Origin: a virus
IMG/VR virus record: IMGVR_UViG_3300032275_000015
Coordinates: 1-29,041 of that record
DNA length: 29,041 bases
Direction: 5' to 3' (one strand)
Shown here: piece after piece, positions 3,716 through 26,349 of the stretch
How positions within the stretch are numbered: position 1 is the stretch's first letter
Layout: the number at the start of each line of letters is the position of its first letter
Position numbers and translations under genes: made by a program
Notes under the pieces: generated by a model
What the model saw: only the letters and a program-made list of their open reading frames with translations
Databases searched by the model: none
What the model was told of the DNA's origin: nothing

Positions 3716-4837
3716 ATGAAAATTAAATTGGAATATGTGTGGTTAGATGGATATAAACCAGAACCTAACCTCAGAAGTAAAGTTAAGATTGTTGAATACA
3801 ATACAGTTAAAAACGCATTTTTAGATGGGAATTTTCCTATGTGGAATTTTGATGGATCATCAACTAACCAAGCTAAAACTGGAAACTCAGATCGTATTTT
3901 AAAACCTGTTAGACATTATATGAAAGACATGTCATCAACGGTTTATGTTTTATGTGAGGTATTAAATCATGACGGGTCACCACACGAGTCAAATAAAAGA
4001 TCAAGTATTGGTGAAGGTTTTGAAGATCTTTGGTTTGGTTTTGAACAAGAGTATTTTATTCGTGAAGAAATTAATGGGAATATTTTAGGACATAAAAGAA
4101 ATAGCCTTAAAGGACAAGGTGAGTATTATTGTGGTGTGGGACATAATGTTGTTGGTCGTAAGTTTGTTGACGAACATACAAATATGTGTTTAGATTATGG
4201 TATTAATATTACAGGAACAAACGCTGAAGTTGCGTTAGGTCAGTGGGAATATCAGATATTATCTAAAGGTAAGTTAAAAGGGGGGGACGATCTTTGGATG
4301 ACTCGTTATTTCTTACACAAAGTTGTTGAAAATTATGGTTACCATATTGAACTTCACCCAAAACCAATTCAAAATGGTGAATGGAATGGATCAGGTCTTC
4401 ATACAAACTTCTCAACAGACATTATGAGACTTGACGGGGATGAAGAATACTTCATGGCACTACTCAACGCATTTGAATCAAGGCACAATGATCACATTAA
4501 AGCTTATGGTTCTAATAACAATCTAAGATTAACTGGGGAGTATGAAACTCAGGCAATTGATAAATTCAGTTGGGGTGTATCTGATCGTGGAGCGTCAATT
4601 AGAGTTCCTCAGGACACAGCAAAAGAATGGAAAGGATATATTGAAGATCGAAGACCAGGGTCAAATGCTGATCCTTACAAGATCATTCGTGAAATTGTTA
4701 AATCACTTGATGTTACACAACAAATATACGATACAAAAAATATGATGACCTCATTTGTTGATATGGATGGTCTTAATGGGAAATACGGAACAATGCCCAA
4801 CGATGAGTTATTAAAAGAATATAGAGAAGAAGAATAA
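3716..4837 (+). CDS. glnII: Glutamine synthetase type II
   Basis: This protein makes glutamine from glutamate, ammonia and ATP. It is full length (373 aa; GSII enzymes are about 340-370). Family signatures are in order: beta-grasp domain with WNFDGSSTNQA (43-53), metal/substrate motif FGFEQEY (107-113), NAEVALGQWEYQ (169-180), HPKPI then GSGLHTNFS (214-233), NNLRLTGEYET (268-278), SWGVSDRGASIRVP (285-298) and EDRRPGSNADPY (310-321). The catalytic Glu and Arg residues appear intact, so activity is likely. It overlaps DUF3310 by 1 nt (TAATG) and belongs to the 2824-5410 run. GSII is mainly eukaryotic and bacterial; in a phage it would be an auxiliary metabolic gene feeding nitrogen to nucleotide and protein synthesis. 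A GSI or GSIII is excluded by the signatures. Confidence 0.95.
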   Translation: MKIKLEYVWLDGYKPEPNLRSKVKIVEYNTVKNAFLDGNFPMWNFDGSSTNQAKTGNSDRILKPVRHYMKDMSSTVYVLCEVLNHDGSPHESNKRSSIGEGFEDLWFGFEQEYFIREEINGNILGHKRNSLKGQGEYYCGVGHNVVGRKFVDEHTNMCLDYGINITGTNAEVALGQWEYQILSKGKLKGGDDLWMTRYFLHKVVENYGYHIELHPKPIQNGEWNGSGLHTNFSTDIMRLDGDEEYFMALLNAFESRHNDHIKAYGSNNNLRLTGEYETQAIDKFSWGVSDRGASIRVPQDTAKEWKGYIEDRRPGSNADPYKIIREIVKSLDVTQQIYDTKNMMTSFVDMDGLNGKYGTMPNDELLKEYREEE

Positions 4838-5106: not shown

Positions 5107-5410
5107 AACAGGGTTTAGTAAAGAAATTTCAGTTTTAGATGCTATCACAACACCAAGTGAATTACTACGAGAAACTCTTATAAATTTTATGTGGGGGTTT
5201 CTTGGGAACTCTATTGTTGTGTTTGTAGCAAACGAACTGGACTTTTTAGTTTTAATAAACTATATTGTTTATTACATTTTAATTTCTTATATTGTGAATA
5301 GAAAGAAATATGACACAATTCTTGGAAAGTTTATAGTTCTTCCTGGATCTGCTGCGTCAGGAGCTTTTGCAGGATATAAATTAGCTCAAATAATTACAGA
5401 AATAGTTTAA
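5015..5410 (+). CDS. Small membrane protein (up to 131 aa)
   Basis: The C-terminal 75 residues hold two or three hydrophobic helices (FMWGFLGNSIVVFVA, LVLINYIVYYILISYIV and GSAASGAFAGYKLAQII). The only ATG giving the full ORF is at 5015, 92 nt inside DUF3310. A TTG at 5045 and an internal ATG near 5189 (which would lose little of the membrane part) are alternatives. I keep 5015 as the default, but the start is uncertain. The part past 5106 is clearly coding by composition. It could act on the host envelope (lysis or exclusion), but no family is recognised. Confidence 0.6.
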   Translation: MQEKKEKIQNLKTSEKPFGTSNTTSKTSKNKTGFSKEISVLDAITTPSELLRETLINFMWGFLGNSIVVFVANELDFLVLINYIVYYILISYIVNRKKYDTILGKFIVLPGSAASGAFAGYKLAQIITEIV

Positions 5411-5436
5411 ATAATGATAAAAAATATATTTTAAAA

Positions 5437-6288
5437 ATGATAGAAACAGGAAAAATTATAAATGGAGATTGTATTGAGGTAATGAAAACTTTACCTGAAG
5501 GTAGTGTTGATTTGGTTGTTACATCACCACCATATAATTGTGGGATTAAATATGATATGCACATCGATAACTTACCTATGGACCAGTATTGGGGTTGGAC
5601 AAAAGAATGGTTAACAGAAACTTACCGATTGATTAAAGATGACGGTAGAGTCTCAATTAACATTCCTTACGAAGTGAATGTTCAAGATAGGGGAGGTAGA
5701 GTATTTTTTGTTTCAGAATTTTATCAAATAATGAAAGAAGTTGGATTTAAATTCTTTGGAATTGTGGATTTAGAAGAAGATTCTCCCCACAGAAGTAAGA
5801 CAACCGCATGGGGATCTTGGATGAGTCCCAGTTCTCCATATATTTATAATCCAAAAGAATGTGTGATATTAGCATACAAAAAAAACCACATTAAAAAGGT
5901 TAAAGGTGAACCAGAATGGAAAGGAGCCCCAACTGAGATTGAACAGGAAGACGGGACATTAAAGAAAAAAATTGTATATGAAGAAAAAGATAAAAAAGAG
6001 TTTATGGAACTTGTTTTTGGTCAGTGGAATTACTTTGCAGATACTAAATCACTCACCAAGGCAACTTTCTCGATGGACATACCAACAAAGGCGATTAAGA
6101 TATTGTCCTACAAAAACGATGTGATTTTGGATCCATTTGCTGGTAGCGGAACATCTATGGTGTCGGCAGAAATATTAGATCGTAGATGGTTGGGAATTGA
6201 ATTAAGTCCAAACTATTGTGATGTTGCGAGAGGTAGAGTTCAGACTTTTGTTGATGAAAAGAAACAAGTTAAAATAGATTTATTTTAA
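5437..6288 (+). CDS. Orphan beta-class DNA methyltransferase (N4-C or N6-A)
   Basis: This enzyme transfers a methyl group from SAM to an amino group in DNA. Motif IV TSPPYN (29-34) comes before motif I DPFAGSGT (232-239), the permuted order of beta-class enzymes. S/TSPPY is more typical of N4-cytosine enzymes, but some N6-adenine enzymes carry it too, so the base is unsettled. FSMDIPTKAI (211-220) is also a usual family segment. At 283 aa it is full length. No restriction endonuclease is nearby, so it probably protects phage DNA or regulates rather than forming an R-M system. It overlaps the minus-strand DUF192 gene tail to tail by 4 nt. A weak motif (TATATTTTAAAA) lies just before the ATG. 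Confidence 0.9.
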   Translation: MIETGKIINGDCIEVMKTLPEGSVDLVVTSPPYNCGIKYDMHIDNLPMDQYWGWTKEWLTETYRLIKDDGRVSINIPYEVNVQDRGGRVFFVSEFYQIMKEVGFKFFGIVDLEEDSPHRSKTTAWGSWMSPSSPYIYNPKECVILAYKKNHIKKVKGEPEWKGAPTEIEQEDGTLKKKIVYEEKDKKEFMELVFGQWNYFADTKSLTKATFSMDIPTKAIKILSYKNDVILDPFAGSGTSMVSAEILDRRWLGIELSPNYCDVARGRVQTFVDEKKQVKIDLF

Positions 6289-18230: not shown

Positions 18231-18544
18231 GTGAAAATGAAAAACAAAAAGTTAAATTGATGATGGTTGATGATAAACCATATATTGTGTCCTTAGACAA
18301 AGTAGAAATCGGAGATAAAGTTATCGTAACGGTTGGGGGTCAATACCCATCAATTGTTGAATGTGAAAATGAAACAGTTTTAAACTTATTAGTAGGATCA
18401 AAACTATCTTTAACGCAAGCAAATAAAATCTTCATGGAGCCCGAATATATAAAATTCCAACCAGAGCAAATCGAAAAAATTATTGAAAATGGCGGAATCT
18501 TAGAAGTTCAAATTGAAGATGGTGTTTACAAGTATAATTTATGA
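18227..18544 (+). CDS. Unknown small protein (105 aa)
   Basis: Beta-rich: KVKLMMVDDKPYIVSLD, GDKVIVTVGGQYPSIVECEN, then helix FQPEQIEKIIENGGILEVQIED. The pattern suggests a small barrel. No catalytic motif is visible and I do not recognise the family. Overlaps both neighbours by ATGA, as part of one operon. Confidence 0.85.
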   Translation: MSENEKQKVKLMMVDDKPYIVSLDKVEIGDKVIVTVGGQYPSIVECENETVLNLLVGSKLSLTQANKIFMEPEYIKFQPEQIEKIIENGGILEVQIEDGVYKYNL

Positions 18545-18657
18545 TGTCTATTGTTGAGACATATGTTCATGTTTTAGGGGTTTCTTTATTAATAATTCTT
18601 CTAAGTGGTTACTTTATTTATGGATATATTAAAAAAAAAAATAATGAAAACACTTGA
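18541..18657 (+). CDS. Single-TM microprotein (38 aa)
   Basis: The sequence MMSIVETYVHVLGVSLLIIL continues LSGYFIYGYIKKK, so one transmembrane helix then a basic tail. It starts on the ATGA overlap with the previous gene and overlaps the Smr gene start. Its packing favours a real gene. Function unknown. Confidence 0.6.
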   Translation: MMSIVETYVHVLGVSLLIILLSGYFIYGYIKKKNNENT

Positions 18658-18865
18658 TTTACATGGAGTTAAACACGCAGATGTCCCTCAATTAATCGAT
18701 CAATTTATTTGGGAACAGATGAATAAAAATTCAAAAGAGATTGAAATTGTTACAGGAATAAGCCAAACAATGAAAGAAGTGGTAATAAAAACCCTAAAAG
18801 ATTATGACTTCAATTATAACGAAGTGTGGAATAACCCCGGTAAGTTAATAATTAGTTTAGTTTAA
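18644..18865 (+). CDS. Smr-domain protein (73 aa)
   Basis: Contains LDLHG (4-8), a long helix, IEIVTGIS (33-40), and PGKLIISLV at the C-terminus, the order seen in Smr domains. These are nuclease or nucleic-acid-binding domains (MutS2/Smr). The usual G-x-G after the ITG strand is reduced to GIS, so activity is not certain. It is a lone domain without MutS. Start taken at MKTLDLHG, where an ATG directly precedes the domain; an upstream in-frame start overlaps the 38-aa gene. Confidence 0.82.
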   Translation: MKTLDLHGVKHADVPQLIDQFIWEQMNKNSKEIEIVTGISQTMKEVVIKTLKDYDFNYNEVWNNPGKLIISLV

Positions 18866-18881
18866 TAAAAAAATGTGATCC

Positions 18882-18908
18882 TCCGGTTGAATAAGTCGGG
18901 GGTTTTTT
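18882..18908 (+). terminator. Weak terminator
   Basis: CTCCG 18882-18886 pairs with CGGGG 18898-18902 (one G-T) with an 11-nt loop, followed by TTTTTT. The loop contains the TTG -33 element of the next promoter. Confidence 0.55.
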
Positions 18909-18917
18909 GTATCTTTG
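18888..18917 (+). promoter_or_regulatory. Host-type promoter TTG-N19-TATCTTTG
   Basis: TTG 18888-18890, 19-nt spacer, TATCTTTG 18910-18917, then 4 nt (TTTT) and the ATG at 18922. Confidence 0.72.
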
Positions 18918-18921
18918 TTTT

Positions 18922-20658
18922 ATGTTAGAAGTAGAAGGTAAAACATTTCATAAGTTAGTTGAGAAAAAAGATTATAGGACTGAACTATATCATAATTTTT
19001 GCGACATATCTCAAAAGGATAAAAATCTTTTAGGTTCATATATTATAACCAAAAATAGGGATAAGTTCTTTTCTGATATCCAATTTTTTACAGAAGAAGA
19101 TTTTGTTAAACATTTTGGAAATCCATGTGCTACCGTTAATTTTAATAGGCAAAGATTATTTATAGAAGAGGGTGACGATAAGATATCAATCAAATTTCAG
19201 ATTCATCAAAAAAGTAGAGTTGTGGGGTCTAAATACTTCTCAGAAAGAAAGTCTACAAACTACCTTACCTTTAATTTCAAAAAGAAAATGTTTTATTCAG
19301 GAACATTCTCCACTAAAAAAAAGAAAGTTATTGGAGGTAGTATGAAGGTAAACCCAACATATTTCGCAATTGAAAATTTTTTAAGAAATCTTAGAATTGA
19401 TGATAGTGTTAAAGTAGACCAATATATTTATTTTTTCTTAGAAAAGATTTGGGATAGAATGGGTATTGAAAACCCACAAAACTTTCAGTGGGACTGCGTG
19501 AGGTCTTTTTATAGTCTAACTTACTATTTGGTTAATGGGATTAAAATCCCAAACAACTGGAAAAAATTCACAGGTATATTCTTTTCTAAAAAAGAATTGA
19601 AAAAGTTTAATATGAACTTGGTGGATACTGCAATGGACAAACTAAAATTAAATGGATCCAAAGTTAAACAGATTTTTAATGAAATGGACTGGGTTGACTT
19701 TGATAAATTGCATATGACTTACAGCCTTTTGGGTATTGATAGATTTAATAAAATTGAAAATAAATACTTTTACGAGTATTATAGCAACAACGAATTTAGT
19801 CATCCAATAGAGGATAATAAAATGGGAAGATATTTTGAATGTTTTTATGAACAATATAATCAATACCAAAATAATAGAATGTCAACCCCATTAACTTCAA
19901 AAGAAAAAGACAGAATTTTAGACTTGATAAAATACTTTTACGGACATAATAAATGGTCAATATTGCTTGATCATTTAGATATGAAAAGGGATTTATTAAA
20001 TCTTGGTGAAGAAGTAAAATTCAAGTTCACAAACATCAGTAGTTTTAATTTAGAACACGAAGAGTTTAGTCGTCTTTTACAATCATATAGAAAAGGTGAG
20101 GTTGAAAGATTCTATGGTAATATTGATAGTTTAGAAAAACCAATCGAACATGAAGGTGAAACATATTATCCGGTACTTCTTCGTAAAACATCGGACTACG
20201 AAGAAGAATCACAACACCAACGAAATTGTGTTCGGACTTATGCTGAGAGACCTGAGTGTTTGATATTCTCAATTCGTAAAGAATCAACTGATGGTGATGA
20301 AAGAATCACAGTTGAATATCAATACCGACATAATGAAATATTAAATGTTCAAGAACGAGCGAAGTTTAATGAAATGCCGTCATTAGAATTCTCACAAGTT
20401 GCTAAAATACAACTTGCGAACATCAATCTTATGTATAAACTTGAGACATTGAAGTTACCAAAGTTAATTAAAAAATACCGTAGTGGTAAAGTTATTGAGC
20501 AACAGTCGACATTCAGAAGTTTAGAACATGAAGGAACTAAAGTGATTGCTATGACTCCTCGTTGGGATACATATACTCCTGAGTTATCTTATTGGCAAAA
20601 TGAAATATTAGGGTTTGATATGCCAGCTTATGATAATTTGTTTGATGAATTACCATAA
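18922..20658 (+). CDS. PcfJ-like protein (578 aa)
   Basis: Start at MLEVEGKTFHKLV (ATG 18922), 4 nt after the -7 box; an in-frame TTG at 18907 lies inside the promoter. The C-terminal part has QHQRNCVRTYAERPECLIFSIR and ITVEYQYRHNEILNVQERAKFNEMP (given in short here), the Cys-Val...Tyr and TVEY...Q pattern of PcfJ-like domains known from conjugative and phage loci. The first 350 residues are alpha/beta, basic and aromatic-rich, with no motif I recognise. Function of the family is unknown. It is the largest gene in the window and alone in its transcript. Confidence 0.8.
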   Translation: MLEVEGKTFHKLVEKKDYRTELYHNFCDISQKDKNLLGSYIITKNRDKFFSDIQFFTEEDFVKHFGNPCATVNFNRQRLFIEEGDDKISIKFQIHQKSRVVGSKYFSERKSTNYLTFNFKKKMFYSGTFSTKKKKVIGGSMKVNPTYFAIENFLRNLRIDDSVKVDQYIYFFLEKIWDRMGIENPQNFQWDCVRSFYSLTYYLVNGIKIPNNWKKFTGIFFSKKELKKFNMNLVDTAMDKLKLNGSKVKQIFNEMDWVDFDKLHMTYSLLGIDRFNKIENKYFYEYYSNNEFSHPIEDNKMGRYFECFYEQYNQYQNNRMSTPLTSKEKDRILDLIKYFYGHNKWSILLDHLDMKRDLLNLGEEVKFKFTNISSFNLEHEEFSRLLQSYRKGEVERFYGNIDSLEKPIEHEGETYYPVLLRKTSDYEEESQHQRNCVRTYAERPECLIFSIRKESTDGDERITVEYQYRHNEILNVQERAKFNEMPSLEFSQVAKIQLANINLMYKLETLKLPKLIKKYRSGKVIEQQSTFRSLEHEGTKVIAMTPRWDTYTPELSYWQNEILGFDMPAYDNLFDELP

Positions 20659-22205: not shown

Positions 22206-23120
22206 ATGAAAAAATATGGTTTTAAAATATCAGGTTGTTTAGGTGATATAGTTAATGCAACTCCGGTTTTTAAATATGTTAGTAGATGCCACAATCAAAA
22301 ACTTTTATTGGAGACTAACTTACCTCATCTGTTTAAAAACAACCCTTATATTGAAAAAATTTATGACACAAACATTGGTGAAACAATTCCTGATGATGTT
22401 TTAATTTATGATTGTAATATCCATAATGTTAATGGAATACAAAAACAAATTAGAAAGATGTCCTCATTTGATTATATCTCAACCAGTTTAGGTTTTACAT
22501 TACCACCCGAAGAAAGGACATTAGAATTCTATCCTGATCCTTTAGACTTTGAATTACCTGAGGGTAAATACATTGTTCTTAACCCGTCAATCACTTGGCC
22601 TTCACGAACATGGGATTTAGAAAAATGGGATAAATTAACCGAGATGATTTTGTCTTTAGGTATTAAGGTTGTTATGGATGGTAAGGATGTTGCATACGGT
22701 GACGACAAGAAAAGTTTTCAAAATATAGATAACCCAAACATCATTAACACCGGTAATAAATTAAACTTATCACAACTTTGGCATCTATTGGAAAATAGCT
22801 TTGCGGTTGTTACATTGGATACTGGTATGTTACACTTCGCTGGTACAACCGATACTAATATTATTGAGGTCGGAAGCGCCATTGACCCGTACTATAAAAC
22901 GCCATGGAGACATGGTACTCAAGATTATAAACATAAATTTGTTGGAGGTTCTTGTAAGTTATTTTGTCAATCAGATATGAAATACAATACTGATGGATCT
23001 TGCAAAATAACCGATGGGTTTCCAATGCATGGATGTTATGAAAATAAACCAACATTTGAATGCCAACCATCACCAAATGGGGTATTCAATGCAATATTAG
23101 AACTTTTAAGTAATAAGTAA
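22206..23120 (+). CDS. GT9 (heptosyltransferase-like) glycosyltransferase
   Basis: The N-terminus SGCLGDIVNATPVF (9-22) is the GT9 substrate loop; the C-terminal domain carries NPSITWPSRTWDLEKW (126-141) and DTGMLHFAG (205-213), the donor-binding signature. This is the GT-B fold family that adds ADP-heptose or similar sugars. Unusual is a Cys-rich C-terminal part (SCKLFCQS, GSCK, HGCYEN, FECQ). It may act on a host surface glycan or modify a virion or DNA component. The next two genes are a methyltransferase and a GT-A glycosyltransferase, so the set likely makes one modified glycan. Confidence 0.88.
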   Translation: MKKYGFKISGCLGDIVNATPVFKYVSRCHNQKLLLETNLPHLFKNNPYIEKIYDTNIGETIPDDVLIYDCNIHNVNGIQKQIRKMSSFDYISTSLGFTLPPEERTLEFYPDPLDFELPEGKYIVLNPSITWPSRTWDLEKWDKLTEMILSLGIKVVMDGKDVAYGDDKKSFQNIDNPNIINTGNKLNLSQLWHLLENSFAVVTLDTGMLHFAGTTDTNIIEVGSAIDPYYKTPWRHGTQDYKHKFVGGSCKLFCQSDMKYNTDGSCKITDGFPMHGCYENKPTFECQPSPNGVFNAILELLSNK

Positions 23121-23737
23121 TGAAAATTGAAAACAGATTAGATATTGTTGATGTATTAAATCAACTATCTTCAAATGGTAAAGGGGTTGAAATAGGATCC
23201 TTTAAAGGTGAGTTTGCAGCTCATATTGTTAAAAATTGGAATGGTAAACTTTATATGGTTGACATTTGGAGACCATTAAGTAGTGAAGAATATAACGATG
23301 CAACAAACCATATGTACCATACTGATGCTTATTCGGTAACTATGGATAACATAAAAGGTTATGAAGACAGAGCATTTATGTTAAGAATGACAGGTAAGGA
23401 AGCTTCAAAATTATTTGGCGATGAATCTTTGGACTTTATTTATATTGATGCCGACCACACTTACGAGGCGATTAAAGAAGATATCAAAGATTGGTATAGA
23501 AAAGTTAAGTCAGGTGGATTGGTGATGGGTCATGATTACTTACCTGATTATTTCTATGATGGTAAGGAAGAAAAGAATCAAGCTCTTTACACTTATGTTG
23601 ATGGTAAACCTGAAGAAGCTAAATTTTCTGGTATGTTTGGTGTCAAACCGGCAATTGATGAGTTTGGAAAAGAAAACGGATATACAATAAACAAAACAAA
23701 TGAATTCTTAGCCAGTTGGTGGTTCATTAAAAAGTAA
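23120..23737 (+). CDS. Class I SAM-dependent methyltransferase
   Basis: The SAM-binding motif is GVEIGSFKGEF (22-32); the acidic motif YMVDIW follows; and LDFIYIDADHTYEAIKEDI (104-122) with SGGLVMGHDY (131-140) is typical of Methyltransf_24-like enzymes. These often act on sugars or small molecules in glycan clusters. The start overlaps the GT9 stop by 1 nt (TAATG). It lies between two glycosyltransferases, which suggests methylation of the sugar they attach. Confidence 0.9.
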   Translation: MKIENRLDIVDVLNQLSSNGKGVEIGSFKGEFAAHIVKNWNGKLYMVDIWRPLSSEEYNDATNHMYHTDAYSVTMDNIKGYEDRAFMLRMTGKEASKLFGDESLDFIYIDADHTYEAIKEDIKDWYRKVKSGGLVMGHDYLPDYFYDGKEEKNQALYTYVDGKPEEAKFSGMFGVKPAIDEFGKENGYTINKTNEFLASWWFIKK

Positions 23738-23741
23738 TAAT

Positions 23742-24866
23742 ATGAATAAGATACCTGCAGTACTTTATTGTACGGAAAACTATTTGGGTGGATCATTAAA
23801 TGTGATAAACACTTTAAACTTATATCACAACGACTTAGAGTTTTATTTATATACATTAAATTTTAGATACGAGTCGGACATACATAATGTTAAAACAATC
23901 TACATTGAGGACAATAGAATTGAAAACAACATTCAATTTGTAGGAACCAAAAATGATATTGGAAATACTAATGTTTATAAAGCCGTGTTCTTTAAAAGTA
24001 GGGTTATTTTAGATTCGTTAGTTAATTTGAATTTAGATAATGTAATTTATATTGATTCGGATATTATACCAACAGGAAACATATCTTACTTGTATGGGTT
24101 TTTTAATCAGATCACAGATTACCCACTCATTCAACAAGGGATATTTGAATACCAAATGGCTTTTGATCGAGGTAATCCATTCCATAAAGGTGGATTTGAT
24201 GAAACAAATGTTTTGGAGTATCCATTAATGATGAGACACTACATGGACTTCAATAATAGAACACCATACTCCGTTGCATCAATTATGTTGTATAATAAGA
24301 ATTGTAAACAATTCGTTATGGAATACAATTGGTTAAATAATCTTGCATTTGATATGAGTAGGAAAGATATTGAATTTTATTACCCATTTTGTGATGAGAC
24401 AACGGTAAATGTTTTATTATGGAAATACGCATACAATAAAAGATTACCATTAATGCAAATGAACATTGATAAGTTTGAAAATGTAAAAGAGTTTTATGAA
24501 TCAAACTACGATGAAGAAAAAGAACTAGAACCATTTATCGTGGTTCCAAGTAAGACAGAAAGAAAAAATAAACTATTTTTCCACGGAGTTAAAGGACAAC
24601 TATCTAATGATACTTTTGATTACCAAAAGAATATGTTCCAAACAAAGATAGATTATAACGAAAATAAATATTATATTATATCTAATGTTAATTTTAATAG
24701 AGATTTAACAATAATGTTTTGCAATAAAGATGAGGTATTCTACGATGTAACACATTACATTGAACAAGGACTTGAGTATTGGTATTCACCAAGTCAAACC
24801 ATTAGTGAGATTAAAAATTTGGTAATTAAAATATACGATGACGGAAAATTAATTTTTAAATTATGA
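23742..24866 (+). CDS. GT-A fold glycosyltransferase (GT8-like)
   Basis: The DxD-type motif is YIDSDIIPTGNI (103-114; Asp105, Asp107), in the setting KAVFFKSRVILDSL...NVIYIDSD, as in GT8-like retaining enzymes that use nucleotide sugars. Residues about 170-260 hold the acceptor side with Tyr/Asn-rich loops; the last 90 residues (KYYIISNVNFNRDLTIMF to KIYDDGKLIF) are a separate beta domain. Donor and acceptor are unknown. It follows GT9 and the methyltransferase by 4 nt and overlaps the next gene by ATGA. Confidence 0.83.
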   Translation: MNKIPAVLYCTENYLGGSLNVINTLNLYHNDLEFYLYTLNFRYESDIHNVKTIYIEDNRIENNIQFVGTKNDIGNTNVYKAVFFKSRVILDSLVNLNLDNVIYIDSDIIPTGNISYLYGFFNQITDYPLIQQGIFEYQMAFDRGNPFHKGGFDETNVLEYPLMMRHYMDFNNRTPYSVASIMLYNKNCKQFVMEYNWLNNLAFDMSRKDIEFYYPFCDETTVNVLLWKYAYNKRLPLMQMNIDKFENVKEFYESNYDEEKELEPFIVVPSKTERKNKLFFHGVKGQLSNDTFDYQKNMFQTKIDYNENKYYIISNVNFNRDLTIMFCNKDEVFYDVTHYIEQGLEYWYSPSQTISEIKNLVIKIYDDGKLIFKL

Positions 24867-25309
24867 AAGATTTATTAAACTTTAGAATTATTAAGTTCGA
24901 CTACCCATTCCCAACTGAAGAACTTGCGGTAAGAATTTGGGATAAGATGAATGAGACTGAAACAAAATGGGCAATCAAATTGACCATAGAAGGTATTAAC
25001 GACACTGGTGATTCTTTAATAGGATCTTGGGACATATTTTTCTTGGACGATAAATTACAAGAAAAAATAGAAAATATACTTAAGAAATATGATGTACCCC
25101 ACAAAATGTTAGATCATACCAATCTTTTAATTGATGATATTGAATACTTCTCAAAAGAATTTTTAGAGAAAATAGATTCATATTTAGGTAAAAATTTGAC
25201 AATTGATTATATTTTGGATAGAATTTTAGAAGTAGGTTATGAAAATATAACTATCTTTGAAAAATACTATTTAGAAAACAACATCGAGATAAGAGAAAAA
25301 AATGATTAA
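24863..25309 (+). CDS. Unknown protein (148 aa)
   Basis: Acidic alpha/beta protein: LLNFRIIKFDYPFPTEELAV, KLTIEGINDTGDS, a charged helical middle, and ITIFEKYYLENNIEIREKND at the end. No family recognised. Overlaps the glycosyltransferase by ATGA and the repeat protein by 8 nt. Confidence 0.8.
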   Translation: MKDLLNFRIIKFDYPFPTEELAVRIWDKMNETETKWAIKLTIEGINDTGDSLIGSWDIFFLDDKLQEKIENILKKYDVPHKMLDHTNLLIDDIEYFSKEFLEKIDSYLGKNLTIDYILDRILEVGYENITIFEKYYLENNIEIREKND

Positions 25310-26042
25310 CTCAACAGGAAAAAAATTAGAAAAAATTATCTTTAAATTGTTTGACGATGCAAGTCAAGGGGTTGATAGATATAATCACAATGGTAGTCTA
25401 TGGGCTATCTTTACCAATGAGATGAAATGGGTTGTTGAATACACTAAAGACCAAACTCTATGGTATAACTATAGATTCTTCAAAGATGAGATGGAGTTAG
25501 TTAGTTTGGATTGTGTTGAAAATAAAGACCTCATTAAAAAGTGGTTTGAATCAAGATTTTTGGGAATACCAAAGGTTGAAGATTCCTGTGAACCATTTTT
25601 TAATCAAGACCAATATGTTGAAGATACCATTCAAAATGGGGTGAAACACACCTATCAATTAGCTAGACATCATTTGGTTGAAGACGCCATTCAAAATGGG
25701 GTGAAACACACCACTCCGGATGCATCAACAATCGTATATGCGGTTGAAGACACCGTTCAAAATGGGGTGAAACAAACCGAATTATCAAAGCGTGACTTTT
25801 TTCCAAAAGACATTATTCAAAATGGGGTAAAAGAGACCAAACGACCACTACTACTGAGAACCAAGAGAGTTGAAGACGCCATTGAAAATGGAGTAAAACA
25901 TACCGAAGACGGTGATTGGTTAGATTGTGATGAAAGGTTTAATAATATTATTCAAGAAGGTGTAAAGGAAACTCATGATGATTGTTCAAATAACATTTCA
26001 AGAGTTGAAGGTATAGTTAGAATAGGTGAAAAATTAAATTAA
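25302..26042 (+). CDS. Six-motif repeat protein (VEDxIQNGVKxT)
   Basis: The N-terminal 100 residues form a small domain (LWAIFTNEMKWVVEYTKDQT, LWYNYRFFKDEM, ENKDLIKKWFES). After it come six copies of a 12-residue motif with consensus VEDxIQNGVKxT at residues 106, 126, 148, 168, 190 and 213, separated by 8-11 unrelated residues (period 20-23 aa). The C-terminus has a degenerate seventh (VEGIVRIGEKL). The spacers vary freely while the motif is kept, as in repeated binding sites. It may display short peptides that bind several copies of one partner. Function is unknown. The motif resembles the ThyA segment DILDNGVKKET. Confidence 0.8.
   Translation: MINSTGKKLEKIIFKLFDDASQGVDRYNHNGSLWAIFTNEMKWVVEYTKDQTLWYNYRFFKDEMELVSLDCVENKDLIKKWFESRFLGIPKVEDSCEPFFNQDQYVEDTIQNGVKHTYQLARHHLVEDAIQNGVKHTTPDASTIVYAVEDTVQNGVKQTELSKRDFFPKDIIQNGVKETKRPLLLRTKRVEDAIENGVKHTEDGDWLDCDERFNNIIQEGVKETHDDCSNNISRVEGIVRIGEKLN
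25617..25973 (+). repeat. Six in-frame motif repeats inside the 25302 gene
   Basis: DNA units of 36 nt encode the 12-residue motif, with 24-33 nt variable spacers between them. Repeat copies differ at third codon positions (for example gaagat/gaagac, gggtga/gggtaa), showing selection on protein rather than DNA. Confidence 0.85.
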
Positions 26043-26043
26043 G

Positions 26044-26349
26044 ATGGGATTTGACGATAAAATAATGAAACTAAGTAGGACAATATATCAAATGTCAGTG
26101 ATGGATCATGGGTCAAAAAATAACCCAACAGGACAAATCAACAAAATAAAAGATATGGTCCGAGAGTTTATTAGAATGGAGGTGGTTCCATATGAATTAA
26201 CAAACCAAGAAAAACTATCATTCATTCTTGACAATGAATATAAAATAACTTCCGCCGTTTTGAACGGACATAAGGCCAGTGATGGAGATGAGTTCCAACT
26301 TGTTAGAGAAAAAATAAAAAAATATAGAATAGAATTAAAAATATTATGA
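26044..26349 (+). CDS. Unknown protein (101 aa)
   Basis: Helical: MKLSRTIYQMSVMDHGSKN, then INKIKDMVREFIRMEV, and a basic end (VREKIKKYRIELKIL). No motif recognised. 1 nt after the repeat gene and overlapping the next by ATGA. Confidence 0.8.
   Translation: MGFDDKIMKLSRTIYQMSVMDHGSKNNPTGQINKIKDMVREFIRMEVVPYELTNQEKLSFILDNEYKITSAVLNGHKASDGDEFQLVREKIKKYRIELKIL

Follow-up and report, generated by a model that had tools for sequence, protein, structure and literature searches.

The window analysed here is the complete stretch of 29,041 nucleotides (positions 1 to 29,041) of the IMG/VR virus record IMGVR_UViG_3300032275_000015. On its plus strand, at positions 25302..26042, an open reading frame (ORF) codes for a protein of 246 residues, whose translation comprises an N-terminal domain and an array of conserved repeats alternating with dissimilar spacers. 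This array protein belongs to a gene family of uncultured large phages, whose arrays probably grow and age like arrays of clustered regularly interspaced short palindromic repeats (CRISPR) but are translated and store peptides.

The N-terminal domain (residues 1-88; 25302..25565, plus strand) was delimited with profile A2, derived from 72 relatives, and with an AlphaFold2 (AF2) model, in which a helix is followed by four strands and two helices (predicted local distance difference test, pLDDT, about 80-94). The profile gave no match in the Protein Data Bank (PDB) and none above the cut-off in Pfam or PHROG. DUF7250, which was hit by three of the 72 members with E=0.0018, was not taken as an assignment. 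That this domain is separate from the array, as stated by the original prediction (a note made from the sequence of the window), is supported.

All array elements lie on the plus strand. The six motif copies of the original prediction were confirmed: repeat 1 (VEDTIQNGVKHT, 36 bp, 25617..25652), repeat 2 (VEDAIQNGVKHT, 25677..25712, the same as repeat 1 in 34/36 nucleotides), repeat 3 (VEDTVQNGVKQT, 25743..25778), the degenerate repeat 4 (PKDIIQNGVKET, 25803..25838), repeat 5 (VEDAIENGVKHT, 25869..25904), and the degenerate repeat 6 (FNNIIQEGVKET, 25938..25973). Two further elements had been overlooked, namely a vestigial half repeat GTTGAAGATTCC (VEDS, 25575..25586), recognised on the basis of family D3, and a decayed terminal, seventh repeat VEGIVRIGEKLN (26004..26039). 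The six copies are spaced by 20, 22, 20, 22 and 23 residues and enclose spacers of 8, 10, 8, 10 and 11 residues; a 10-residue spacer follows the sixth copy. From the N- to the C-terminal side, the identity of successive repeats drops from 34 over 33, 26, 25 and 20 to 20 of 36 nucleotides. Pairwise comparison of the copies yielded 35 silent and 28 amino acid-changing single-base codon differences; the silent differences from which protein-level selection had been deduced are real, and such selection is supported.

Five of the six window spacers were found again in other phages (L and G numbers are our labels for members of the data set). No copy was found elsewhere of spacer 1 (YQLARHHL, 25653..25676). 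Spacer 2 (TPDASTIVYA, 25713..25742) has alleles in three other arrays (87-90% nucleotide identity), spacer 3 (ELSKRDFF, 25779..25802) occurs in three other arrays (96%), and spacer 4 (KRPLLLRTKR, 25839..25868) has the allele KRGLLPRTKK in L109 (80%). Spacer 5 (EDGDWLDCDER, 25905..25937) is the most widely shared cassette, with 24 other units. Spacer 6 (HDDCSNNISR, 25974..26003) recurs as HDDCSNNIAR in L002 and L003 and as YDDCSNNIAR in L001. The spacers had been described as dissimilar and free. They are indeed dissimilar within one array, with a mean nucleotide identity of 0.27 that equals the value between arrays; a sequence that recurs in other phages is, however, not free.

A degenerate pattern for VED..QNGVK was used to search IMG/VR DNA for further proteins with several motif copies and was present on at least 119 contigs, which excludes a chance origin of the pattern. 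A search with only the N-terminal domain led to 155 confirmed loci, and 93 of the 95 N-domain ORFs scored locally contain repeats. The final data set consists of 105 distinct arrays with 1052 units and 947 spacers. The common architecture is an N-terminal domain of 85 residues followed by 12-residue repeats that alternate with 10-residue spacers; the unit length is mostly exactly 22 residues, and 674 of 882 spacers have 10 residues. Copy number differs among related phages, a variation that the original prediction had raised, and reaches 23 strict motifs in one array. The family is absent from 50,697 phage records, where the weak matches were tape-measure proteins, from 72,556 plasmids and from 84,980 prokaryote genomes; the latter also contain no exact match to the repeat pattern. 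Assembly chimeras are unlikely to be a general cause of the arrays, given that many contigs show the same long array order, whereas single arrays such as that of L120 rest on one contig.

A spacer was regarded as young if its flanking 36-bp repeats are identical in at least 35 of 36 positions. All 57 young spacers are exactly 30 nucleotides long, and at the DNA level, where no frame was assumed, no spacer length deviates from a multiple of three. In L081, eight of eight repeats are identical over 36 nucleotides and the spacers are unrelated. L120 contains two paralogous arrays with a lineage-specific 36-bp repeat, of which 11 copies are identical; the spacers are all different, and decay is confined to the distal repeats. 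Young spacers lie close to the N-terminal domain, which occupies the place of a CRISPR leader: their mean relative position is 0.28, compared to 0.52 (p=7e-8). The young consensus repeat has a short dyad symmetry, CCATT/AATGG, that is lost in old copies. The spacers of one array have no residual similarity to each other, and unequal crossing-over with divergence was rejected on these grounds.

The base composition of the young spacers differs from that of their surroundings. Their GC content is 0.43-0.45, with no codon periodicity, at a locus mean of 0.31. The four bases are nearly even, without base-specific bias or a shared template, and a weak TA depletion and an AA/TT excess are seen. As the flanking repeats diverge, the GC content at third codon positions (GC3) of the spacers drops from 0.44 to 0.24 (Spearman 0.30, p=3e-11; 0.25, p=8e-8 when the two richest loci are left out), while that of the first and second positions stays flat (p=0.85). 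This is the pattern that inserted DNA would show if the peptide is kept and silent sites adapt to the codon usage of the phage; neutral drift in AT-rich genomes would presumably not produce the composition of young spacers. An independent replicate was provided by the arrays of G005 with the repeat GTTGAAAGAATCCTTCAAAAGGAGGTTAAAGACACC, whose 30-nucleotide spacers have a GC content of 0.456, compared to 0.286 in the 30 nucleotides after the last repeat (p=0.008) and 0.30 in the genome. The diverged sister repeat of G005 that shows this picture, VERILQKEVKDT, has another motif in the same 12+10 geometry and lies inside other phage proteins. One to three tandem N-domain copies with short VERILQKEVKDT arrays occur in G005 (L251-L260) at 18464-19800 and 154900-157000 on the plus strand and at 40900-42000 on the minus strand, and also in L261; in both G005 and L261 they lie upstream of other phage domains, one of which is nucleotidyltransferase-like (phrog_36119).

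The spacers were grouped into 447 families, 76 of which have more than one allele. Among homologous alleles, the ratio of amino acid-changing to silent substitution rates (dN/dS) is 0.27-0.32. Between nearest alleles, 51% of the single-base codon differences are silent, compared to 26% +- 2% for random placement. This excess is seen only in the coding frame; it persists when the 12 commonest families are removed, and also among spacers that lie between young repeats. The arrays also exchange and lose whole cassettes. Those with N-domains at least 95% identical differ by entire cassettes, and 316 of 320 common cassettes are colinear. Identical spacers or cassettes, with varied neighbours, also occur in phages that have only 58-70% of the nucleotides of their N-domains in common. 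In total, 100 spacer families are present in more than one array cluster, and the Chao1 estimate is about 1500 families. Position preferences inside the spacers are weak but significant; the spacers are therefore probably structurally constrained. Their length of mostly exactly 10 residues, purifying selection and movement as cassettes suggest that the spacers are likely the working parts, and the motif a constant scaffold.

We therefore interpret the gene as a translated array, coding for protein, whose growth and ageing follow the pattern of CRISPR arrays and which stores selected peptides on a constant scaffold; we assign a probability of about 0.6 to this reading. New units would be added beside the N-terminal domain, each made up of the resident 36-bp repeat, exactly copied, and 30 bp of DNA dissimilar to that of the phage itself. 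As 36+30 can be divided by three, every unit would contribute a constant scaffold element of 12 residues and a new peptide of 10 residues. An in-frame stop is absent from about 56% of random 30-mers of young-spacer composition, so that such an insertion would often be tolerable. Helpful peptides would then be retained by purifying selection while adapting to the codon usage of the phage, whole cassettes would pass between phages by recombination in the near-identical repeats, and the distal repeats would decay. The resulting protein would be a multi-specific collection of peptides. Given the large open spacer pool, its targets may be many and variable, such as host defences or rival phages; a role in binding host or competitor proteins, in counter-defence or phage-phage conflict, is most likely.

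Several results weigh against this reading. No source of the spacers was detected: matches above chance were found neither in 2.0 Mb of related phage DNA, nor for 60 young spacers among the 50,697 phages, 27 spacers among the 72,556 plasmids or one spacer in IMG/VR. Cas1 was not found in 11 phage records in which the controls were positive, and no integrase was thus identified there. The measures of selection come from spacers with more than one allele and not from the youngest, single-copy ones. Finally, cassette gain and loss among close relatives is spread along the array (0.18, 0.23, 0.15 and 0.15 by quarter); strict end-only growth was therefore rejected, and recombination inside the arrays, besides end addition, shapes them. 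Two other origins of the spacers were also rejected. For pieces of the phage's own genome, the longest exact matches were barely above codon-shuffled controls. For host peptides copied in frame, a purine bias at codon position 1 is lacking; the purine content of young spacers is equal at all codon positions.

CRISPR spacers of types II-C and VI-B in Flavobacterium columnare are 30 nucleotides long. The phage arrays, with their 36-bp repeats starting with GTTG, unique 30-bp spacers of uniform length, near-identical direct repeats at a young, leader-like end, a degenerate terminal repeat at the distal end, and colinear arrays that differ by whole units, resemble such loci. The corresponding F. 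columnare repeats likewise have 36 bp and begin with GTTGT (PMC8092290). One detail of the polarity differs: the GTTG end is leader-distal in F. columnare, whereas each repeat of the phage arrays turns its GTTG end towards the young end. The phage arrays further differ from CRISPR in their in-frame translation, their fusion to a conserved protein domain and the codon-level purifying selection on their spacers, in the exchange of cassettes between phages, and in that neither cas1 in the phages nor protospacers were found. Since both the association with cas genes in the phage (no Cas1 in the 11 records) and a non-coding, crRNA-like action fail, the phage array is not classed as CRISPR. As a tentative explanation, rather doubtful at present, the repeat in the gene might mimic a host CRISPR repeat, and a CRISPR-type integrase, either host Cas1-Cas2 or another enzyme, might insert 30-bp fragments beside the N-terminal domain; selection of the resulting peptides would yield a heritable, growing library of binding peptides.

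Among the alternatives, an unlikely one is that units are duplicated and their spacers then altered by targeted hypermutation, through a diversity-generating retroelement (DGR) or another mutagenic process, with no outside DNA. The precise 66-bp units and the identical repeats are consistent with it, and DGRs, such as that of a Bacteroides phage (PMC6199706), are likewise a phage-borne source of protein diversity. However, no reverse transcriptase (RVT_1) was found in the same 11 records, which are possibly incomplete and in which the controls were positive, and residual similarity among the spacers of an array is absent; a duplicated spacer occurs in only two of 98 arrays. Rather than the adenine-specific variation of a mutated template copy, the young spacers are new, unrelated segments without a common template or base-specific bias, and their nearly even composition is not that of the phage. 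Through their weak depletion of TA and excess of AA/TT they are similar to natural DNA.

It is also improbable that the protein is a beta-solenoid binding protein with hypervariable loops whose coils are merely shuffled by recombination, without any special acquisition of DNA. An AF2 model of ten young units of L108 is a beta-solenoid with a pLDDT of 83 and a predicted template modelling score (pTM) of 0.83 and resembles parallel beta-helices (Z up to 16.7). Cassette shuffling and the position preferences inside spacers would agree with such a fold, and the original prediction, which had called the array unlike a folded repeat, had named a predicted solenoid as the outcome that would speak against it. 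Formally this outcome was obtained; it carries little weight, as AF2 yields confident false beta-solenoids for repeat sequences (PMC11795689) and the model falls into this artefact class. The window array itself reached a pLDDT of only 55-70. In the homologous VERILQKEVKDT repeat, which suggests a helix instead of a solenoid, KE replaces the NG turn, and shuffling alone does not explain the unperiodic 44% GC of young spacers. A Foldseek search with the full window model returned no match with E <= 0.001, and none for the array in viral models, but a fold may exist even where a match is weak or missing. Two likenesses of the motif were dropped: thymidylate synthase, whose N-terminus had seemed similar, does not score with the motif matrix, and the score for dodecin is a sum of sub-threshold pieces.

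The model of the original prediction itself, in which multivalent binding is due to the motif as a short peptide and the spacers serve as neutral linkers, is very unlikely. Conservation of the motif and variation in copy number are as this model would have it. It fails on the spacers, which mostly have exactly 10 residues, a dN/dS of about 0.3 with a silent excess only in frame, and copies in distant phages, between which they move as cassettes; moreover, the sister array VERILQKEVKDT retains the 12+10 geometry with a different motif. Little probability is likewise left, and marginally less, for a multi-core peptide precursor, in which the motif would serve for processing or recognition and each spacer would be released. 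The leader-like domain and the repeated constant and variable modules are indeed reminiscent of multi-core precursors of ribosomally synthesized and post-translationally modified peptides (PMC5934393). In contrast to these, the spacers have no common core motif, and among the recurrent neighbours of the arrays, which were not exhaustively annotated, no enzyme for processing or modification was recognised; the most recurrent neighbour family is near at most 31 of 80 array clusters, and in G005 arrays also lie upstream of other phage proteins. Least probable of all is a CRISPR array or an RNA-based anti-CRISPR decoy that acts as nucleic acid within an incidental ORF, which the 36+30 geometry, the short repeat hairpin CCATTcaaAATGG, the polarity and the F. 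columnare-like repeat would favour, but which is contradicted by the conserved in-frame N-terminal domain, the silent-site excess in spacers, the lack of any frame-breaking length, the decay of silent sites in old repeats, an RNA folding z of only -1.5 and the absence of any Rfam CRISPR family at threshold.

Two known repeat systems are comparable in part. PARCEL proteins (DUF285; PMC2996958) likewise have coding repeats in tandem, in which both constant and hypervariable residues occur, and have spread horizontally. Their coding DNA shows dyad symmetry, to which the short CCATT/AATGG symmetry of the young consensus repeat, with a folding z of -1.5, might correspond. Their repeat, however, has 25 residues, with variable positions among conserved hydrophobic ones, whereas the phage array is built of 12-residue blocks and, in between, blocks of 10 wholly variable residues. 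There is no sequence match between the two (none to DUF285 or TIGR02167 when Pfam and NCBIfam were scanned up to E=1), and neither foreign-like spacers nor an age gradient are described for PARCELs (PMC2996958). The amino-acid tandem repeats of Borgs (PMC9879509) also evolve fast and in frame in large extrachromosomal elements; they are direct tandem repeats, whereas those of the phage arrays are separated by unrelated spacers.

In the window, the array gene is flanked by two plus-strand genes without a known family above the cut-off. The upstream one (24863..25309), whose stop overlaps the start of the array gene, has relatives near 22 of the 80 array clusters, and the downstream one (26044..26349) near 27. 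Directly upstream of this operon lies a cluster of glycosyltransferases (GT8 and GT9 type) and a methyltransferase (23742-24866, 22206-23120 and 23120-23737). The 29-kb record further codes for an RNA ligase, an AAA ATPase, a DNA methylase, a NUDIX protein and a thymidylate synthase, as well as for a phage-encoded glutamine synthetase-like protein (3716-4837; PF00120, PF03951) and a 583-residue ORF with a TTG start (18907-20658) that has a PcfJ-like match (PF14284); other known members of this family come from conjugative plasmids. Near the array of L003, an ORF resembles a GIY-YIG homing endonuclease (5297-6070); such a family is near 11 of the 80 clusters. A second repeat family, with leucine-rich-like repeats of 20-21 residues (SLGNLxSVGGxLxL), was seen in some of these phages, namely L120 (4158-6100, minus-strand ORFs), G005 (24719-26100), L070 and L055.

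The array-bearing phages are large; their longest records reach about 300 kb. In G001 the portal is T4-like (phrog_213), and among its nearest isolates, at 35-37% identity, are Microcystis phage Mel-JY01 and Flavobacterium phages; the presumed major capsid protein of G001 had no match. Large secreted proteins in L002 (510-3326), L003 (918-2759) and L249 (16039-17904), which we take to resemble the type IX secretion cargo of Bacteroidota, hint at the host. The carriers are thus probably T4-like large phages of Bacteroidota.

One practical consequence is that repeat-spacer arrays on phage contigs can be protein-coding and may be mistaken for CRISPR. If our interpretation is correct, these phages acquire peptides by a route that resembles CRISPR adaptation, with precise insertion, repeat duplication, ordered storage, selection and sharing, but is read out as protein. 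Viruses would thus have a novel means of producing protein diversity and of keeping it. The array would then be a natural maker and keeper of new short peptides, and the age of each peptide could be read from the decay of its repeats and the amelioration of its codons.
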